The notes beneath the pieces are model-generated. The model worked only from the letters and a program-made list of their open reading frames with translations. It did no database searches and was not told where the DNA came from. The position numbers and the translations under genes are program-made. From NCBI GenBank assembly GCA_003023405.1, contig PXST01000035.1, positions 1-52,118 of the forward strand: a stretch of DNA of 52,118 bases. Reading direction: 5' to 3'. Positions 3,349-52,118 of this stretch are shown here, piece by piece; the stretch's first letter is position 1, and the number at the start of each line of letters is the position of its first letter. Origin of the DNA: Halobacteriales archaeon SW_8_68_21 (GTDB lineage Archaea; Halobacteriota; Halobacteria; Halobacteriales; Haloferacaceae).

Positions 3349-4245
3349 ATGGCACCCGCCGAGGACGACATCTCGATCGACGAAAAGCGCGTGTACGCAG
3401 GCAGCGCCGGCCGCACCGACGCCTACGTCGCGACTGGGACCGGGATCGTCCGCGTCTCGCTGTCGGCCGACAAGGTCGGCGCGTTCGACATGGTCGCCCG
3501 CAACCCCGCCCGCGACGTCACCGTCCTCGCGCGCGACGAGCCGACGGCCCTCGTCGCTGCGGCCACACCCGACGGGCTCTCCGTCGCCGCAGTCGGCGAG
3601 GACCCGGAATTCGAATCGGTCGACGCCGCCCCCGCGGTCGCGGTGGGACCGACTGGGGGTCGTGACGGCGCTCGGGACGGTTCGCTCCTCGTCGCGCGCG
3701 AGGACGGCGCGATCGAGCGCGTCGCGTTCGCGGACGGCGGGACGGCGGTCGCGTCGACGGCGCGGCTCGGCTCCGTCGCGGACCCGCGAGCGGTCGACGG
3801 CGCGCTCGTCGCGGCCGCCGACGGCGTGTACCGCGTCGCGGGCGGCGAGATCGAGGACGTCGGCCTCGACGCGGCGCGCGACGTGACCGGAGCCGGGATG
3901 CCGCTGGCGGCGACCGGCGCGGGACTCTACTGGCTCGGCAACGGCTGGATGGCGGCTCGTAAGGGAGCGGCCGAGGCGGTCGCGGCCGACGGCGACGGCC
4001 ACGCGACGGCGGTCGTCGAGGGGGAGTTGCTCGTTCACTCGGGAGCGGGCGAGTGGGACGACGAGACGTGGGAGCCGACCGACCTGCCGGTCGACGAGGA
4101 GCCGGTCGCGCTCGGTTACGGCCCCGGCGTCTCGGTCGCGGTCACCGCCGCGGGGACGCTCTGTGTCGACGCCGGCGGCGGCTGGCGACATCAGGTGGTC
4201 GGTGTCCGGGACGTCGCTGGCGTCGCGCTCGCCGCCGTGGAATGA
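3349..4245 (+). CDS. HVO_0234-type beta-propeller protein
   Basis: The 298-residue protein starts MAPAEDDISIDEKRVYAGSA and consists of short repeating beta-rich blades, with recurring G-x-G/ADG turns such as ATGTGIVRVSLS and AADGVYRVAGGE. This resembles the haloarchaeal family typified by HVO_0234, which is predicted to fold as a beta-propeller. No catalytic motif is visible and the role is unknown. I prefer the ATG at 3349 to the first codon of the longer frame at 3292, because the extra 19 residues overlap the divergent neighbour's start. It ends before a repeat element and faces the M29-like gene. Confidence 0.75.
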   Translation: MAPAEDDISIDEKRVYAGSAGRTDAYVATGTGIVRVSLSADKVGAFDMVARNPARDVTVLARDEPTALVAAATPDGLSVAAVGEDPEFESVDAAPAVAVGPTGGRDGARDGSLLVAREDGAIERVAFADGGTAVASTARLGSVADPRAVDGALVAAADGVYRVAGGEIEDVGLDAARDVTGAGMPLAATGAGLYWLGNGWMAARKGAAEAVAADGDGHATAVVEGELLVHSGAGEWDDETWEPTDLPVDEEPVALGYGPGVSVAVTAAGTLCVDAGGGWRHQVVGVRDVAGVALAAVE

Positions 4246-4282: not shown

Positions 4283-4790
4283 AAGCGTTTATAAGTGGTT
4301 CCGAGCAGGTCAGTCGAATGCGTCCGAAGCCGCATGTCGTTTATTTATACCTACTTGACCGCGACGAACGCTACCGAAGCCCCGGTCGCTCGACTGGACG
4401 TAATTGCTTATAAACCGGTGATCGACACGGTCGTCTCCGAAGCCCCAGTTGCTCGGCCGTATTGCGTTGATTCTATCTATAAGTGAGTGATCGACACGAT
4501 CGTCTCCGAAGCCCCAGTCGCGACGGCTCGCGCGGCTTGTTGCGGTCCTCGTCGCTCGCTACGCTCGCTCCTGCGGCCCTTCCTGCGCCGTGCTTCGCCC
4601 TCGCGACTGCCCCTTCGAGTCCCACCCGACCGCAACCGCACAGCACCTCACGCCTCCCCAGCCTCGTCGCTCGCTCTGGGCTCCCTTCGGTCGCCCAGTC
4701 GCTCGCGACTCCCTCGCGCGGCGCTGCTTCGCTGCCGCCGCTGGCGGCCGCTCGCAGGCGCGCGCCACCGCTCTGCTGTCTCAGTGACCG
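4283..4790 (+). repeat. Dispersed repeat element, copy A
   Basis: This copy fills the gap between convergent genes. The left half has four TATA-like motifs (TTTATAAG at 4288, TTATTTATAC at 4341, CTTATAAACC at 4407, TCTATAAG at 4476), with GAAGCC-type boxes at 4326, 4375, 4438 and 4507 and the shared phrase TGATCGACACG. The right half is GC-rich with many small inverted repeats. It contains the family core, CCTCACGCCTCCCC then AGCCTCGTCG ending at 4669, a variable hairpin, and GACTCCCTCGCGCG at 4707-4720. No convincing protein is encoded. See copies at 11700, 39536 and 51655. Confidence 0.8.
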
Positions 4791-4814: not shown

Positions 4815-5765
4815 CTACGCGCTCGGTAGGTCGATCGCCTCGCCGTCGGCGTAGACGGTCGGGTTCCGAACGATCCCGTCGAGGTGGAGCGGCGCGTCGG
4901 TCTCGCCGCCGATCCCGGCGTCGTCGCCGATCGCGATGTGGACGGTGCCGCCGGCCTTCTCGTCTAAGAGGACTGAGCCGACCAGTTCGTCGACGCCCAC
5001 GTTTGTCCCGATACCGAGTTCCGCGAGGTTGTACGCGGCGTCGCCGACCTCCTCGGCGGCCGCCTCCACGTCGGCTCGGATCTCGTCGTCCGAGACGGAG
5101 GTGACGAAGCCGTCTTCGACCTCGAACCGGAGCTCTTGTCCCTCGTCGAGCAGGCCGTGCGGCATCATCGTCCCGTCGACGACGTAGGTGCCGGTCGCGG
5201 TCTCGGGCGCGACGAACACCTCGCCTGCGGGGAGGTTCGAGAAGTCGCCCGAGTCGCGGACCATCCCGGTGTCAGCGAGCCACTCGCGGTCGCCGATCCC
5301 GAACGTGATGTCGGTGCCGGCGGGCGCGGTGACGCGGATCTCGTCCGCGTCGCCGATCTGCCCGAGCACGTCGTCGCAGGCGGCCTCGATGGCGGCGTAG
5401 TCGGCGTCGAGACCGGTCGTGAACACGCTCTCAGTGACCCCCGGAAGCGTCGCGCCGCGCGCGCCGGCGTCGCAGGCCGCGCCGCGGGCGCGGGTGTGAC
5501 TCAGGCTCTTCGTCGTCGGTGCGAGAAAGATGTCCGCGTCGGCCATCGCGGCCGCGACCGGTGCCGGCGGCTCCGTCCCGTGCTGGTCGGCCGGCGGGTA
5601 CCGCAGGACCGTCGCGTCGTCTGTGACGGCGCTCGCGGCCGCGTAGAGCGCCTCGCCGATCGGCTCGCGCTCGTCGTCGGTGACGACGACGACGGACTCG
5701 TCGGCGGCGACGTTCAGGCACTGTTCGACCGCGGTCGACGCGCCATCGGAGAGGTCGGCTGTCAT
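4815..5765 (-). CDS. Aminopeptidase, M29-like (aminopeptidase T family)
   Basis: The 316-residue product matches archaeal leucyl aminopeptidase/aminopeptidase T relatives. Diagnostic stretches are LPAGEVFVAPETATGTYVVD, an extended beta region with LRFEVEDGFV, and the C-terminal GTVHIAIGDDAGIGG plus APLHLDGIVRNPTVYADG. M29 enzymes are metallo-aminopeptidases that remove N-terminal residues from peptides. The metal-binding set is only partly obvious here, so activity is inferred from family membership. I chose the ATG at 5763-5765 over one 13 codons upstream, because it begins MTADLSDGAS and leaves room for the divergent gap promoter. It converges on repeat copy A. Confidence 0.75.
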   Translation of the reverse strand: MTADLSDGASTAVEQCLNVAADESVVVVTDDEREPIGEALYAAASAVTDDATVLRYPPADQHGTEPPAPVAAAMADADIFLAPTTKSLSHTRARGAACDAGARGATLPGVTESVFTTGLDADYAAIEAACDDVLGQIGDADEIRVTAPAGTDITFGIGDREWLADTGMVRDSGDFSNLPAGEVFVAPETATGTYVVDGTMMPHGLLDEGQELRFEVEDGFVTSVSDDEIRADVEAAAEEVGDAAYNLAELGIGTNVGVDELVGSVLLDEKAGGTVHIAIGDDAGIGGETDAPLHLDGIVRNPTVYADGEAIDLPSA

Positions 5766-11291: not shown

Positions 11292-11429
11292 CGTCCGACC
11301 CTACCCGTCGCATCGTTATTAATCCAACTGCCATTCTCGACCGTCTATTTATAAAATATTATTAAAAACGTGATTTCAAATGGTAATATTTCCCGCGAGT
11401 ATTTATTCGGCGGGCGGCTACCTCGGCGC
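11292..11429. promoter_or_regulatory. AT-rich divergent promoter region
   Basis: This short gap between the metal ATPase (minus) and a small membrane protein gene (plus) is strikingly AT-rich, with CTATTTATAAAATATT at about 11343-11358 and GGTAATATTT at about 11381-11390. It can hold TATA boxes for both directions. A metal-responsive operator is plausible given the ATPase, but I see no clear palindrome to name. Confidence 0.55.
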
Positions 11430-11691
11430 ATGACAGACTGGCGCGCCGTCGGCTATGGGTTCGTGGTGATGCTCATCGCCGGAGTGTTGGCGACGGCCGC
11501 GCCGGGACTCGGTCACGCGGCCGCCGGACTGATCGGCGGGTTCGCCGCCGGCTACGTCGCCGGCGGCGGACTGCTCTCCGGGTTCTGGCACGGGCTGCGC
11601 GGGCGTGTTCGTCGTCGGGCTGTTCCTGACGCTGCTGTTCGCGGTCGACTCAGCGCTCGCCGGCGCGATCGGCGGCGTTCTCGGTGAGTGA
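11430..11691 (+). pseudogene. Small membrane protein, DUF5518-like, frameshifted
   Basis: The frame starts MTDWRAVGYGFVVMLIAG and carries the glycine-rich GLIGGFAAGYVAGGGLLSGFWHGL typical of haloarchaeal DUF5518-type membrane proteins. It then slips at about 11603-11608. The expected third helix, VFVVGLFLTLLFAVDSALAG, continues in another frame to a TGA at 11689-11691. A one-base difference in a GC run would restore a protein of about 87 residues. It is either a mutation or a sequence error. No function is known for the family. Confidence 0.65.
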
Positions 11692-11699
11692 TCAGATCA

Positions 11700-11935
11700 G
11701 GCCGTTTTTCCGGTCGGCGCGTGCCTCCGAGCGCCTTTTAAATGCGCGAGGAGCACCGCGCGAGGGAGTCGCTCACTCGGAGCGAAGCGGAGAGTGAGCG
11801 ACGAGGCTGGGGAGAAATGAGGCTGCGATCCTGTGCGGGGCTTCGAAGGTGTTGGTGGTTGGATCAATCGTAACGACGTATCGCCTCCCGGCCGGGGCTT
11901 CGGCGGTCGTGTCAATCAGGAGTTTATAAAGATCG
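11700..11935 (-). repeat. Dispersed repeat element, copy B
   Basis: Read on the minus strand, this copy has TTTATAAA at 11923-11930, the CCGAAGCCCCGGCCG box, a second CGAAGCCCC box, then CTCCCCAGCCTC at the core. A perfect hairpin follows, with arms at 11792-11802 and 11768-11778 (11 bp) and a 13-base loop TCCGCTTCGCTCC in the sense direction. GACTCCCTCGCGCG comes next, then a second hairpin around ATTTAAAAG. It lies between the convergent DUF5518-like and peroxiredoxin genes. Confidence 0.8.
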
Positions 11936-29542: not shown

Positions 29543-30754
29543 ATGAAGGCAATCAAGGACAGCGTCCACGGCCACGTCCGACTCGGCGACGTCGCCGCCG
29601 AACTGGTCGACACGCCAGCGTTCCAGCGGCTACGCCACATCAAACAGCTGTCCACGGTTCGGCTCGTCTACCCCTCCGCGAACCACACGCGGTTCGAACA
29701 CAGCCTCGGCGTCTACCACCTCGCGGGCCGCGCGGTCGAGGGGCTCTGCGTCGACAACGACACCGCGGCGCACGTCCACGCCGCGGCGATGCTCCACGAT
29801 GTCGGGCACGGCCCGTACGGCCACCAGACTGAGGGTATCATCCGGCGCGCGACCGGACGCGACCACGACGACGTGGGATGGCTCCTCACCGACGCGGACC
29901 GCGAGGTGTGTCAGGTCCTCGAACGCAACGGGCTAGACCCCGAACGCGTCGCCGCCCTGATCGACGGGGAGGGGGCGCTCGGGTCCCTCGTCTCGGGCGA
30001 ACTCGACGTGGACCGCATGGACTACCTCGTGCGCGACGCCCACCACACCGGCGTCCCGTACGGCACCGTCGACACCGGCCGGCTCGTCACCGAACTCCGG
30101 CTGGTCGACGGGAACGCTTCGGCGGAGTCCCAGGGCGACGCCGACCTCGTCTTGGACGAGGGGAACGTCGCCACCGCCGAGAGCCTCCTCGTCGCGCGCT
30201 CGCTGATGAACGCCGTCGTCTACCGCCACCACGTCTCCCGCGTCGCGGGCGCGATGCTGGAGCGCGCCTGCGAGCGGTACCTCGACCGGACGGACACCGA
30301 CATCGAGGCGTTCCGTCGGATGGCGGACCACGACCTCCTCGTCGAACTGCGCGACCGCGCCCTGGCGCTCGGCGAGCGTATCGAGCGGCGCGACCTCTAC
30401 AAGCGCGCCGTCTGGGCCGAACTCGACGAGGTCCCCGCGGGCACGGTCGACGCCGGTCGCGCAGAGGAGCGGGCGGCCGAGCGCGAGATCGCCGACGTCG
30501 TCGGGATCGACCGCGACGCGGTCGTCGTCGACATCCCCTCGCGGCCGGCGCTCAAGGAGTCCGGCTCGGCCGTCGTCGTCGACGGCGTCCCCCAGCGGCT
30601 GGAGGACGCCTCGGAGCTGGTGGCCGGTCTCCGGGCCGCGGGGCGTCGGCGCTGGACGCTCGGGGTCTACTGTCCGGCCGAACACGTCGACGCGGTCGCG
30701 ACCGCGGCGCGGGACGTGTTGGGGCTGCGCGCGGCGAACCGTCCCTCAGCTTGA
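29543..30754 (+). CDS. HD-domain phosphohydrolase, paralogue 1
   Basis: The 403-residue protein starts MKAIKDSVHGHVRLGDVAAE. Metal ligands are in NHTRFEHSLGVYHLAGRAVE (His53), AAMLHDVGHGPYGH (H85/D86) and SGELDVDRMDYLVRDAHHTG. These are the features of the dGTPase/SAMHD1-like HD superfamily, which hydrolyses (deoxy)nucleoside phosphates; substrate is unknown. The C-terminal half (about 240-400) is helical and ends in a beta region. It is strongly similar along its whole length to the product of 31367-32626, separated from it only by a UspA gene on the other strand. Confidence 0.9.
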   Translation: MKAIKDSVHGHVRLGDVAAELVDTPAFQRLRHIKQLSTVRLVYPSANHTRFEHSLGVYHLAGRAVEGLCVDNDTAAHVHAAAMLHDVGHGPYGHQTEGIIRRATGRDHDDVGWLLTDADREVCQVLERNGLDPERVAALIDGEGALGSLVSGELDVDRMDYLVRDAHHTGVPYGTVDTGRLVTELRLVDGNASAESQGDADLVLDEGNVATAESLLVARSLMNAVVYRHHVSRVAGAMLERACERYLDRTDTDIEAFRRMADHDLLVELRDRALALGERIERRDLYKRAVWAELDEVPAGTVDAGRAEERAAEREIADVVGIDRDAVVVDIPSRPALKESGSAVVVDGVPQRLEDASELVAGLRAAGRRRWTLGVYCPAEHVDAVATAARDVLGLRAANRPSA

Positions 30755-31366: not shown

Positions 31367-32626
31367 ATGATCACGGTCAAGGACACCGTCCACGACCACA
31401 TCGAGATCGACGGGGTCGCCGCCGACCTCGTCGACACCCCCGCCGTTCAGCGGCTCCGCCACGTGAAACAGCTCGGGACGGTTCAGCTCGTCTACCCCTC
31501 CGCGAACCACACACGGTTCGAACACAGCCTCGGCGTCTACCACCTCGCAAGCCGCGCGCTCGACCACCTCGGGATCGAGGGGAAACGCGCCGACCGCATC
31601 GAGGCGGCGGCGATGCTCCACGACACCGGCCACGGCCCGTTCAGCCACAACCTCGAATCGCTCACGCACCGCCGCACCGGGAAGTATCACGACGACGTCG
31701 GCGAACTGCTCGCGACCGGCGCGGTCGGCGAGGTCCTGCGCGACCACGGCCTCGACCCGGACCGGATCGCCGCGATCGTCGCCGGCGAGGGACCGTACGC
31801 CGGCCTCGTCTCGGGCGAACTGGACGTGGACCGAATGGATTACCTCGTGCGCGACGCCTACCACACGGGCGTCCCGTACGGCACCATCGACACCGAGCGG
31901 TTCGTCCGCGAGCTGACGTTCGTCGAGCGGAACGACATCCCGGACGGGGACGGGTCGGACCGCGACGGCCCCCAGCTCGTCTTGGACGAGGGGAACGTCC
32001 AGACCGCGGAGAGCCTGCTGCTCGCTCGGGCGCTGATGAACCCGGTCGTCTACACCCACCACGTGGCGCGCATCTCGAAGGCAATGTTGCGCCGGGCGGC
32101 GAGCGACCTCCTCGACGCGACCGCGACGACCGCGGCCGAGCTCCGACGGATGGACGACCACGACTTCCTCGCGGCGGTCCGCGACTGCTGCGAGACCGCC
32201 GAGCTCTCCCGGCGGTACGACGAGCGCGACCTCTACAAGCTGGCGGTGTGGGCCGAGTACGACGACGTTCCCGACCGGGTCCACGACGCGGACCACGCCG
32301 CGGAGGCGTCGCTCGAACGCGAGATCGCCGAGGAGGCGGGCGTCGCGCGCGACCACGTGATCTTGGATGTCCCGCCCGAGCCGACGATGCGGGAGTCGAC
32401 CGCGCGCGTCACCGTCAACGGCGAGATCCGTCGCTTGGAGCGGCAGTCGCCCTTGGTGTCGGCGCTCCGGACCGCACAACGGAACCAGTGGCGGCTCGGC
32501 GTGTACGCCCCGGAACCGGCGACCGACCGCGTCGGTCGGGCGGCCGGAGACGTTCTCAGGCTCGACTCCGACGCGCTGGTGACCGAGGTCCGCGGCGCGA
32601 TGCCGACGACGCTCGACGAGTTCTGA
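31367..32626 (+). CDS. HD-domain phosphohydrolase, paralogue 2
   Basis: The 419-residue protein starts MITVKDTVHDHIEIDGVAAD and carries the same metal motifs as its paralogue: NHTRFEHSLGVYHLASRALD, AAMLHDTGHGPFSHNLESL (H85/D86), SGELDVDRMDYLVRDAYHTG and VLDEGNVQTAESLLLARALM. It is predicted to hydrolyse nucleotide phosphoesters. The pair arose by duplication; the motifs are identical in both and divergence is largest in the last third. A TATA-like CCTTTTAGCC about 30 bases before the ATG suggests its own promoter. No defects were seen. Confidence 0.9.
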   Translation: MITVKDTVHDHIEIDGVAADLVDTPAVQRLRHVKQLGTVQLVYPSANHTRFEHSLGVYHLASRALDHLGIEGKRADRIEAAAMLHDTGHGPFSHNLESLTHRRTGKYHDDVGELLATGAVGEVLRDHGLDPDRIAAIVAGEGPYAGLVSGELDVDRMDYLVRDAYHTGVPYGTIDTERFVRELTFVERNDIPDGDGSDRDGPQLVLDEGNVQTAESLLLARALMNPVVYTHHVARISKAMLRRAASDLLDATATTAAELRRMDDHDFLAAVRDCCETAELSRRYDERDLYKLAVWAEYDDVPDRVHDADHAAEASLEREIAEEAGVARDHVILDVPPEPTMRESTARVTVNGEIRRLERQSPLVSALRTAQRNQWRLGVYAPEPATDRVGRAAGDVLRLDSDALVTEVRGAMPTTLDEF

Positions 32627-38809: not shown

Positions 38810-39505
38810 ATGGCCATTCCCTCGTTCGTGATCGGGATCGCGGGCGGGACGGGTGCCGGGAAGACGACTGTCTCCCGGCTCGTCACCCGCGATCTCGGCG
38901 ACAGCGTCACCCGGATCCCGCTCGACAACTACTACGAGGACCTCTCGCACCTCGACTTCGAGGAACGTCAGGCGGTCAACTACGACCACCCCTCGGCGTT
39001 CGAGTGGGAACTGCTCAGAGAACACCTCGAAGCCTTACTGGAGGGGCAGTCCGTCGAGATGCCCCAGTACGACTTCGAGATCCACAACCGGAAAGACGAG
39101 CGCGTCACCGTCGAGCCGACCGACGTCGTCGTGCTGGAGGGGATCTTGGCGCTGTACGACGAAGACATAAACGACATGATGGACCTCCGGCTGTTCGTCG
39201 AGACGGACGCCGACGTGCGTATCCTGCGCCGGATCCGGCGAGACGTGATCGACCGCGGCCGCGACCTAGAGGGCGTCATCGACCAGTACCTCTCGACGGT
39301 GAAGCCGATGCACGAGCAGTTCATCGAGCCGTCGAAGAAACACGCGGACGTGATCATCCCGGAGGGTGCGAACAGCGTCGCGGTGAACCTCCTCGAAGAG
39401 AAGCTCCGCGCCGAGGTCGAGGGCGACGCGGTCAGAAGCTGGGAGCGCGGGAGCCTTGAACAGGAACTCGGCGAGAAGCGCTCGCTCGACATCGACGACG
39501 ACTGA
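38810..39505 (+). CDS. udk: Uridine kinase
   Basis: The 231-residue protein has the P-loop GIAGGTGAGKTTVSRLVTRD (about 12-20), DNYYEDLSHLDFEERQAVNY (the base-binding DxYY motif), YDHPSAFEWELLREHLEALL, DVVVLEGILALYDEDINDMM and the lid RRIRRDVIDRGRDLEGVIDQ. It phosphorylates uridine and cytidine in pyrimidine salvage. Length is normal with an acidic C-terminus. It converges on repeat copy C and the XPB-like helicase. No defects were seen. Confidence 0.96.
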   Translation: MAIPSFVIGIAGGTGAGKTTVSRLVTRDLGDSVTRIPLDNYYEDLSHLDFEERQAVNYDHPSAFEWELLREHLEALLEGQSVEMPQYDFEIHNRKDERVTVEPTDVVVLEGILALYDEDINDMMDLRLFVETDADVRILRRIRRDVIDRGRDLEGVIDQYLSTVKPMHEQFIEPSKKHADVIIPEGANSVAVNLLEEKLRAEVEGDAVRSWERGSLEQELGEKRSLDIDDD

Positions 39506-39535: not shown

Positions 39536-39755
39536 GAGACGCCTCCGAAGCTCCCAGCCGCTCGCTTATAAACAGCTTACAGCAGATCGACGGCGAAGGC
39601 ATCCAAAGCCCCAGCCGCTCGCTTATAAATAGCTTACAGCAGATCGACGCCGAAGGCCTCCAAAGCCCCAGCCGCGCACAGCACCGCACCTCACGCCTCC
39701 CCAACCTCGTCGCTGGCGGCGGCAGCCGCCATCGCCGCCGCTCACCGCCGCCGAC
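39536..39755 (+). repeat. Dispersed repeat element, copy C (57-bp tandem units)
   Basis: Two 57-bp units, with CCAGCCGCTCGCTTATAAAYA and GCTTACAGCAGATCGACG, start around 39554 and 39611. A third partial unit runs into GCACAGCACCGCACCTCACG and CCTCCCCAACCTCGTCG (to 39712). A hairpin pairing GGCGGCGG with CCGCCGCC follows, with a GTCG/CGAC base and a two-base bulge. The 57-bp period equals 19 codons, so one frame gives a 19-residue peptide repeat; coding is doubtful. Its 3' edge overlaps the end of the helicase gene. Confidence 0.8.
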
Positions 39756-51165: not shown

Positions 51166-51600
51166 GTGTCGACGCGCACCGTGAGCGACGCGATCCGCGA
51201 GGGGCAGCTCCGGTGGAACAGCACCGACGGCTGGCGGTTCGCGCTCGTCGAGGGCGGCGTCCGCTTCGTCGTCGTCGTGAGCGACACGGAGACGAACTCG
51301 CCGGTCGTCGTCACGGGGTGGACCGAGGTCGCTGACCGCGAAGCGGCGCTGGACGCCTCGCGGTGGGACGGCGTCGACGTGGACACCATCGCGGTGCGCA
51401 CCGCCTTGAGCGAGTCGGCGTCGACCCCGATCCCCGACCGGATCCGCCCGCGGACCGTGACGCGCCCGTTCGAGGTGGGCGAACACCGACTGGAGACCGC
51501 GCCCGGCGACCCGTTCGTGCGCTGTACCGTCTGCGGCTGCCGGTTCCGCTCGAAAGAGGCGATCACCTCGCGGCGGTGCCGGAACCGCTCGTCGGACTAG
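51166..51600 (+). CDS. Hypothetical protein with a C-terminal zinc motif
   Basis: A GTG at 51166 gives 144 residues: VSTRTVSDAIREGQLRWNST, then a beta-rich RFALVEGGVRFVVVVSDTET and VVTGWTEVADREAALDASRW. The C-terminus has CTVCGCRFRSKEAI with a further distal Cys. The CxxC plus later Cys suggests a small zinc site. A second GTG at 51181 is an alternative start. It resembles small haloarchaeal proteins of unknown function with one binding domain. It is followed by repeat copy D. Confidence 0.6.
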   Translation: MSTRTVSDAIREGQLRWNSTDGWRFALVEGGVRFVVVVSDTETNSPVVVTGWTEVADREAALDASRWDGVDVDTIAVRTALSESASTPIPDRIRPRTVTRPFEVGEHRLETAPGDPFVRCTVCGCRFRSKEAITSRRCRNRSSD

Positions 51601-51654: not shown

Positions 51655-52118
51655 TGAACTCCCCCGAATCTCCAGCCGCTCGGCTGTACGTGGTTATTTA
51701 TATATCAGTTATCGACACGGACACTCCCGGAGCCCTAGGCACTCGGCTGTGCGTGATTGCTTATAAATCGCGGACCGACACGGACACTCCCGAAGCCCCA
51801 GCCGCGAGGACGGCACACGCTCGCTGCGGTCCTCACTCGGTCGCTTGCGCTCCCTCGTTGCGGTCCTTACTTCGCCTGCGCCGTCCTCGCGGCTGCCCCT
51901 TCGAGTCCCACCCCTCCGGAAGACGTTCCTGCTCGCTCGCTCCGCTCACTGCGCGGGCTGCGACTTCCGTGCTCCCGCTCGCTTCGCTCGCGGGAACGCA
52001 CAGCACCGCCTCACGCCTCCCCAGCCTCGTCGTCGGTCCTCCGCTTCGCTTCGGACCGACGACTCCCTCGCGCGTGCTGGCTCGCGGTCGCTTGCGGCGA
52101 CCGCTCGCAGACGCGCAG
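51655..52118 (+). repeat. Dispersed repeat element, copy D (runs off the window)
   Basis: Two 63-bp units carry TATA-like TTATTTATATATC (51694) and CTTATAAATCG (51760), each followed by CGACACGGACACTCCC (51713 and 51776) and an AGCC-type box. A GC-rich section of small inverted repeats contains TGCCCCTTCGAGTCCCACCC (as in copy A). The core is CCTCACGCCTCCCC with AGCCTCGTCG. It carries a perfect hairpin (arms 52029-52039 and 52053-52063, 13-base loop TCCGCTTCGCTTC), GACTCCCTCGCGCG, and a second hairpin GCGGTCGC/GCGACCGC near 52085-52105. Confidence 0.82.

Follow-up and report, generated by a model that had tools for sequence, protein, structure and literature searches.

Two kinds of haloarchaeal repeat element are known from Haloquadratum. 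The PATEs are non-coding and contain subterminal palindromes, with neither terminal inverted repeats nor target duplication (PMC3119063). The small mobile repeats (SMRs) have inverted termini, a length of ~110 bp and a highly conserved sequence (PMC3119063). In bacteria, the REP, BIME and REPIN sequences are intergenic, palindromic and present in high copy number; they form strand-specific hairpins and occur as single units, inverted pairs and tandem clusters (PMC2817692, PMC3116915, PMC3733652). Halovirus HF2 has intergenic repeats of ~58 bp with AT-rich motifs, and these carry promoters (PMC8707807).

We have analyzed a repeat element present in a stretch of 52,118 nucleotides (the window), corresponding to contig C35 in the fragmented genome of a Halorubrum (G000; 2.44 Mb in 55 contigs). 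For gene calling we used our own program, which relies on hexamers and dynamic programming and was trained on 1.28 Mb of G016, the most closely related complete genome. A query comprising the 508 nt of copy A matched the window's own genome 53 times, the best paralogue having E = 2e-62, and the repeats of the window are far above chance level. Four copies, A to D, are found in the window. The initial annotation had placed A, B and C in gaps between convergent genes and D after a plus-strand gene, and the gene calls confirm this. The features of each copy are listed below, where R1 is a covariance model of the first hairpin (H1) that was built from the G016 copies alone.

Copy A, whole: core 4506-4771 with tail units from ~4325, in a convergent gap
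4325-4505, plus strand: tail of copy A, tandem units spaced 63 and 69 nt, with TTATAA-type motifs and the repeated H1 terminal segment CCGAAGCCCCAG
4506-4623, minus strand (the strand that G-U pairs favor): hairpin H1 of copy A, 98.9 bits with R1
4646-4663, plus strand: conserved linker of copy A, CCTCACGCCTCCCCAGCC
4664-4771, plus strand: hairpins H2 (~4666-4709) and H3 (~4716-4766) of copy A, 3′ end ..GCGCGCCACC
11715-11849, minus strand: core fragment of copy B with H3, H2 and linker (HMM positions 108-247)
11838-11903, plus strand: decayed H1 of copy B, both ends kept and the middle gone (R1 19.1 bits, E = 0.09)
39553-39666, plus strand: tail of copy C, two units of 57 nt that are 95% alike, with CTTATAAA
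39667-39720, plus strand: truncated core of copy C, linker and start of H2 (HMM positions 120-166 at 39671-39716), with H1 and H3 deleted
51658-51789, plus strand: tail units of copy D, 63 nt, with TTATAAA
51790-51909, minus strand: hairpin H1 of copy D, 121.8 bits with R1
51910-52116, plus strand: linker, H2 and most of H3 of copy D, up to the contig end (core match to HMM positions 1-243 over 51790-52116)

The gap containing copy A is bounded on the left by a plus-strand gene ending at 4245, encoding an HVO_0234-like β-propeller, and on the right by a minus-strand gene ending at 4815, encoding an M29-peptidase-like protein. Copy B lies between a small plus-strand gene on the left and a minus-strand peroxiredoxin gene on the right, and has a TTTATAA motif near 11923, after the decayed H1. 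The small gene (11370-11690) is frameshifted as assembled here; several relatives have an intact gene of 121 aa. Copy C is located between a plus-strand kinase gene ending at 39505 and a minus-strand helicase gene ending at 39742. The suggestion that this copy supplies the last codons of the helicase gene is refuted, because the C-terminus (ERVASRRR followed by the stop, or a near variant) does not depend on the presence of the element: it is common to 19 Halorubrum genomes, of which some are element-free at this position. Copy D (51658-52116) is downstream of a plus-strand ORF ending at 51600 and reaches the end of the contig, and several copies in this draft genome are found at contig ends.

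The element is a modular palindrome, comprising H1 (~119 nt), a conserved linker, H2, H3 and between 0 and 6 tandem tail units of 51-69 nt each. On the plus strand of the HMM the order is tail units, H1, linker, H2 and H3. In the commonest forms TTATAA stands 29 or 37 nt ahead of the core, with a second TTATAA 8-10 nt past it; overall, ~38% of copies have the left motif and ~36% the right one. The family takes the form of H1 alone, of inverted H1-H1 pairs, or of H1-linker-H2-H3 with a tandem tail. A likeness between the segment CTTCGAGTCCC and the T arm of a tRNA led us to consider derivation of the tail from a tRNA; the likeness is probably due to chance, since the segment pairs within H1.

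Two further sequences were seen beside the element. A group of 12 copies (loci L146, L154, L155, L173, L178, L205, L212, L220, L222, L229, L233 and L245) share a right-flank extension past the core, TTATAAGCGATCGTCGCC...TTTAAATAC...ACCGATCTGCAAYACTCACTCCCGCTATCG, which most copies do not have. A different intergenic repeat motif, GTTTCAGACAAnnnnnnGTCTGAAGAATAGGnTTTCAACAGAGCC, is found near some copies (L066, near the element at 4085-4242; L220; L233) and is probably a second Halorubrum repeat family.

Like the PATEs, the element is non-coding and, with a core of ~250 nt, has no room for a transposase gene; there are many divergent copies, remnants resulting from core deletion, and other small repeats nested within it (PMC3119063). 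No terminal inverted repeats or target duplication are evident, but the junctions at empty sites are ragged, and the H1-H1 pairs found elsewhere have inverted ends. Unlike the PATEs, the element revealed no relation to IS605-type transposon ends, and it is far more widespread, occurring in 21 genera with tandem tail units and a precisely conserved, multi-loop H1 of 119 nt. With the REP, BIME and REPIN sequences it shares every property given above (PMC2817692, PMC3116915, PMC3733652). However, its H1 of ~119 nt compares with a REP or REPIN unit of 20-40 nt that has a conserved tetranucleotide foot (GTAG or CGTC), there is no association with a RAYT-type (Y1) transposase, and the element is confined to haloarchaea. 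Compared with a MITE, the Halorubrum copies are without inverted ends, the H1-H1 pairs of G054 and G099 are inverted, and no parent transposon was found. The tail units resemble the HF2 repeats in also bearing TTATAA (PMC8707807), although the element has no sequence match in the phage collection. The element works most like PATEs and REPINs, yet it departs from both in everything that links them to a transposase. Neither its conserved strings nor any description of the family was found in the non-subscription literature searched, and the family is apparently undescribed.

Covariation and the favored strand of H1

On the strand opposite to the HMM plus strand, H1 reads GGGACTCGAAGGGGCAG-stem-...-stem-CTGGGGCTTCGG, with covarying steps of 2 bp and invariant GA/AG internal loops between them. 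Analysis of H1 using RNAalifold gave 32 pairs, 17 of them with compensatory double changes. In an alignment of 108 sequences that included other genera, and that had been fitted to the structure, the paired cells make up 97.3% and those with double changes number 785. Shuffling gave a mean of 235 such cells (none of 500 shuffles was as high as observed), and slid controls on the H1 alignment gave 39-141. The same helices are present in a structure-free HMM alignment. The structure of H1 is thus established by covariation and not by the fold energy of a single copy, which was uninformative (z = −1.05).

The G-U pairs favor the strand opposite to the HMM plus strand, by 91 to 39 in the structure-free HMM alignment (bootstrap share 0.61-0.79). 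Taking all pairs of the model-fitted alignment the direction is the same, with 48 versus 14 in Halorubrum and 23 versus 8 in other genera. The bias marks a functional single strand, without separating RNA from single-stranded DNA.

These properties could be those of a multicopy structured RNA, or RNA-like element, with a function in the host, such that the strand with G-rich and tandem G-A internal loops would be active and copies would be kept by selection. All three G-U counts are consistent with this, as are the invariant purine-rich internal loops that separate the covarying steps and the intact pairing of orthologous copies. Against it, the orientation relative to neighboring genes is not fixed (55 versus 40 in tandem gaps, three sets), and TTATAA is beside just ~36-38% of copies, with no consistent position for a promoter of the favored strand. 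The spacers of 27-34 nt in inverted H1 pairs have no evident promoter, and many orthologous sites have no copy. There is no matching family in Rfam, where loci of other genera gave only sub-threshold microRNA noise. We consider a structured RNA with a host function to be a possible but rather unlikely account of the family.

Distribution across the haloarchaea

Within the order, 41 of 79 genomes, from 21 of 37 genera, contain a match to R1. In a sample taken across the phylum, the 53 genomes from other orders gave no match. The elements occupy many intergenic gaps in haloarchaeal genomes, with dozens in some. Copy numbers are patchy, reaching 87 in G053, 45 in G029, 38 in G054 and 33 in G024, while the two sampled genomes from other genera of the Halorubrum family have 0 or 1. 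The complete Halorubrum genome G020 has 10 H1 matches compared with at least 43 in its congeners, and offers a natural low-copy strain for comparison. The covariance model defines the family, so that questions of age, movement and expression can now be tested.

Among the 80 listed of 120 loci matched by a conserved string of the element, all are from Halorubrum but for one record of an 'uncultured archaeon'. The non-Halorubrum matches have the outer helix too, but compensated, GAAAG/CTTTC taking the place of CGAAG/CTTCG. The linker GGYTGGGGAGG is also present in copies of G024, G029, G094 and G060, many of which have the H2/H3 boxes CGCGCGAGGG and GCGCGC. Inverted H1 pairs separated by 27-34 nt (some wider) are found in G054, G099 and one copy of G094, and pairs ~190 nt apart in G053. 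The pairs of G053, G054 and G099 read outward and have short centers, some with GGTTGGCCAACCGG-like palindromes. Tail units made of repeated H1 ends recur in other genera.

BLAST located the element on a few large haloarchaeal plasmids. No copy was found in phages or viruses by exact-pattern and BLAST scans of a phage collection and of viral contigs. A virus-borne element was also rejected on inspection of 16 15-mers in viral contigs, which were chance occurrences and did not match the model.

Placement relative to genes

The 1.28 Mb analyzed of G016 contain 68 copies, 18 of them in convergent, 38 in tandem and 12 in divergent gaps. None of these lies inside a called gene; the same is true of all 141 copies of a multispecies set and of all but one of 42 in the window's own genome. 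Taking gaps of all lengths in G016, the fraction occupied is 8.8% for convergent, 4.7% for tandem and 5.9% for divergent; for gaps of 50 nt or more the values are 20%, 7.4% and 5.9%. The corresponding odds ratios for convergent gaps are 1.8-2.1 and 2.9-3.4, the latter with p < 0.001 and robust to gene-score cut-offs. In 120 Halorubrum loci from multiple species, the 113 copies that could be classed comprised 54 convergent, 20 divergent and 39 tandem, compared with 97 (16%), 127 and 384 of the element-free gaps in the same set. The convergent odds ratio is then 4.8 for all gaps and 10 for gaps of at least 50 nt; the p value of 2e-12 for the former is too small, because copies entered the sample only with the sequence box intact and some orthologous sites are represented more than once. 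In the window's own genome, 10 classed copies are convergent, 18 tandem and 1 divergent.

The bias toward convergent gaps is therefore real but partial. Mapping these copies against gene orientation, a check proposed in the initial annotation for all genomic copies, bears out a non-random preference, although most copies in a genome lie elsewhere and the window copies were rejected as a representative sample. An inserting element tolerated only in convergent gaps had also been envisaged; this fits the bias, but 'only' does not hold, since in G016 tandem gaps have the most copies and divergent gaps are used. Avoidance of the start regions of genes is supported. Copies come as close as 6 nt to stop codons, whereas the 10th percentile of distance to start codons is ~70 nt, and copies are rarely nearer than 60-70 nt.

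The placement had been considered suitable for a transcription boundary or a terminator. A bidirectional one, kept where genes converge, would be in keeping with the convergent enrichment and with the inverted H1 pairs of other genera, which are nearly symmetric. Archaeal intrinsic termination uses T-runs. A run of T4 or A4 is, however, present in none of 51 full cores, T4 occurs with similar frequency beside elements and in element-free convergent gaps, and the copies of G016 are mostly tandem or divergent. Moreover, the element is missing between the genes of pair A in about 10 of 28 genomes. A function at transcript ends is consequently unsupported and in our view improbable, and an intrinsic terminator is rejected on the T-runs together with the empty sites at gene pair A.

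We give slightly less credence still to a chromosome-organizing or protein-binding site. Tens of dispersed copies, and their rarity on plasmids, would be in keeping with such a site; moreover, among the G016 matches listed all are on contig C1 and none on the small second contig. But the copies have no strand polarity along the G016 chromosome (37 plus versus 31 minus), which also led us to reject a Chi-like or replication-polar site. Stem sequences are free to vary so long as pairing holds, unlike a binding site in duplex DNA, and the number of copies falls from dozens to 10, or to 0-1, between related genomes.

Turnover of copies and origin of the family

The two genes at site A (gene pair A) are found together in 28 Halorubrum genomes. 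In ~17 of these they enclose an element, whole or decayed, in the same relative orientation, and in those without one there are mostly 14-90 nt between the stop codons. At sites B and C, too, some genomes have the element and others do not. When 13 sites of the window's own genome were mapped onto G016, 9 had a copy in the same orientation and 4 had none. Some of the copies at sites A and C are remnants of internal deletion. The alignments of empty sites revealed neither a clean target duplication nor a clean junction.

Proteins encoded at sites A-C are 94-95% identical between the window's own genome and G016. The orthologous copies of the element are 82-89% identical, which is no more than paralogues (means 81-86%). 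Within G016 the highest identity between copies is 94%, and no near-identical recent copies were found. Despite this divergence the pairing has been kept. Eight orthologous pairs contain 53 pairing-preserving double changes, with 8 one-sided and 15 broken, where a neutral simulation expects ~5-7 broken and 0.1-0.3 double changes per copy. In all seven orthologous pairs inspected the upper stems of H1 differ in sequence, one stem having been exchanged for another. Because stepwise compensation would be too slow to generate these differences, we infer block exchange between copies, i.e., gene conversion; reinsertion at the identical place and in the same orientation is less likely.

On balance we favor, as somewhat the more probable account, an old, haloarchaea-wide family of non-autonomous palindromic elements, retained where promoters are spared and homogenized by recombination. 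The hairpin formed by a single strand would be the structure recognized during copying, by some enzyme, and the elements would thus have been mobile in the past. Copies would survive mainly where a gene and its promoter stay joined, so that convergent and downstream gaps become over-represented; the convergent preference most likely arises because elements do least harm there, with selection against promoter disruption behind the bias. Old copies would decay through internal deletion, and ectopic recombination would homogenize the remainder by swapping whole stems. Stem swapping would then provide a natural means of following ectopic gene conversion in haloarchaea. Weighing against this account are the failure to see transposition with clean ends or target duplication, or to identify an enzyme, and the ceiling of 94% identity in G016. 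A host function could instead account for the persistence over 21 genera, the preserved structure and the strand-specific G-U pairs.

A broader proposition, that haloarchaea possess a hitherto undescribed class of structured single-stranded RNA or enzyme-recognized hairpin DNA, present at up to ~100 copies per genome, actively maintained and exchanging whole hairpin arms with the structure preserved, is possible though rather unlikely. If copies are maintained and not decaying, the family would be a host structure of wide occurrence, or else a selfish element that has persisted for long and has no known transposase. Either would be new for archaea, if true.

Direct derivation from IS200/IS605, either as a PATE or as a REP moved by a Y1 transposase, would account for the PATE-like traits (subterminal palindromes, no inverted termini or target duplication, deletion remnants and nested hairpin inserts; PMC3119063), but is very improbable, since current mobilization is argued against by copy-rich genomes in which Y1 was not found (G016, G019, G043, G053, G064 and G029, with TnpB also not found in G053), by the lack of any element within ~1.5 kb of 17 Y1-transposase (TnpA) loci, and by its presence at just 2 of the 30 TnpB loci, a number not above that expected from copy density.

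Nested twin-hairpin inserts, e.g., GTCGCCGGCG..CGCCGGCTGCCAGAGGGACCTTCGGTCCCTC, are found in the loops of H1, H2 or H3 in copies at site A (loci L032, L033, L038, L041, L042, L047 and L053). By description they look comparable with the SMRs of haloarchaea, small repeats whose insertion sites are palindromes (PMC3119063).

Elsewhere in the window, the adjacent plus-strand genes at 29543-30754 and 31367-32626 are diverged duplicates, with 76-82% DNA identity over long stretches. The motif MLHDxGHGP suggests that they encode HD-domain hydrolases.
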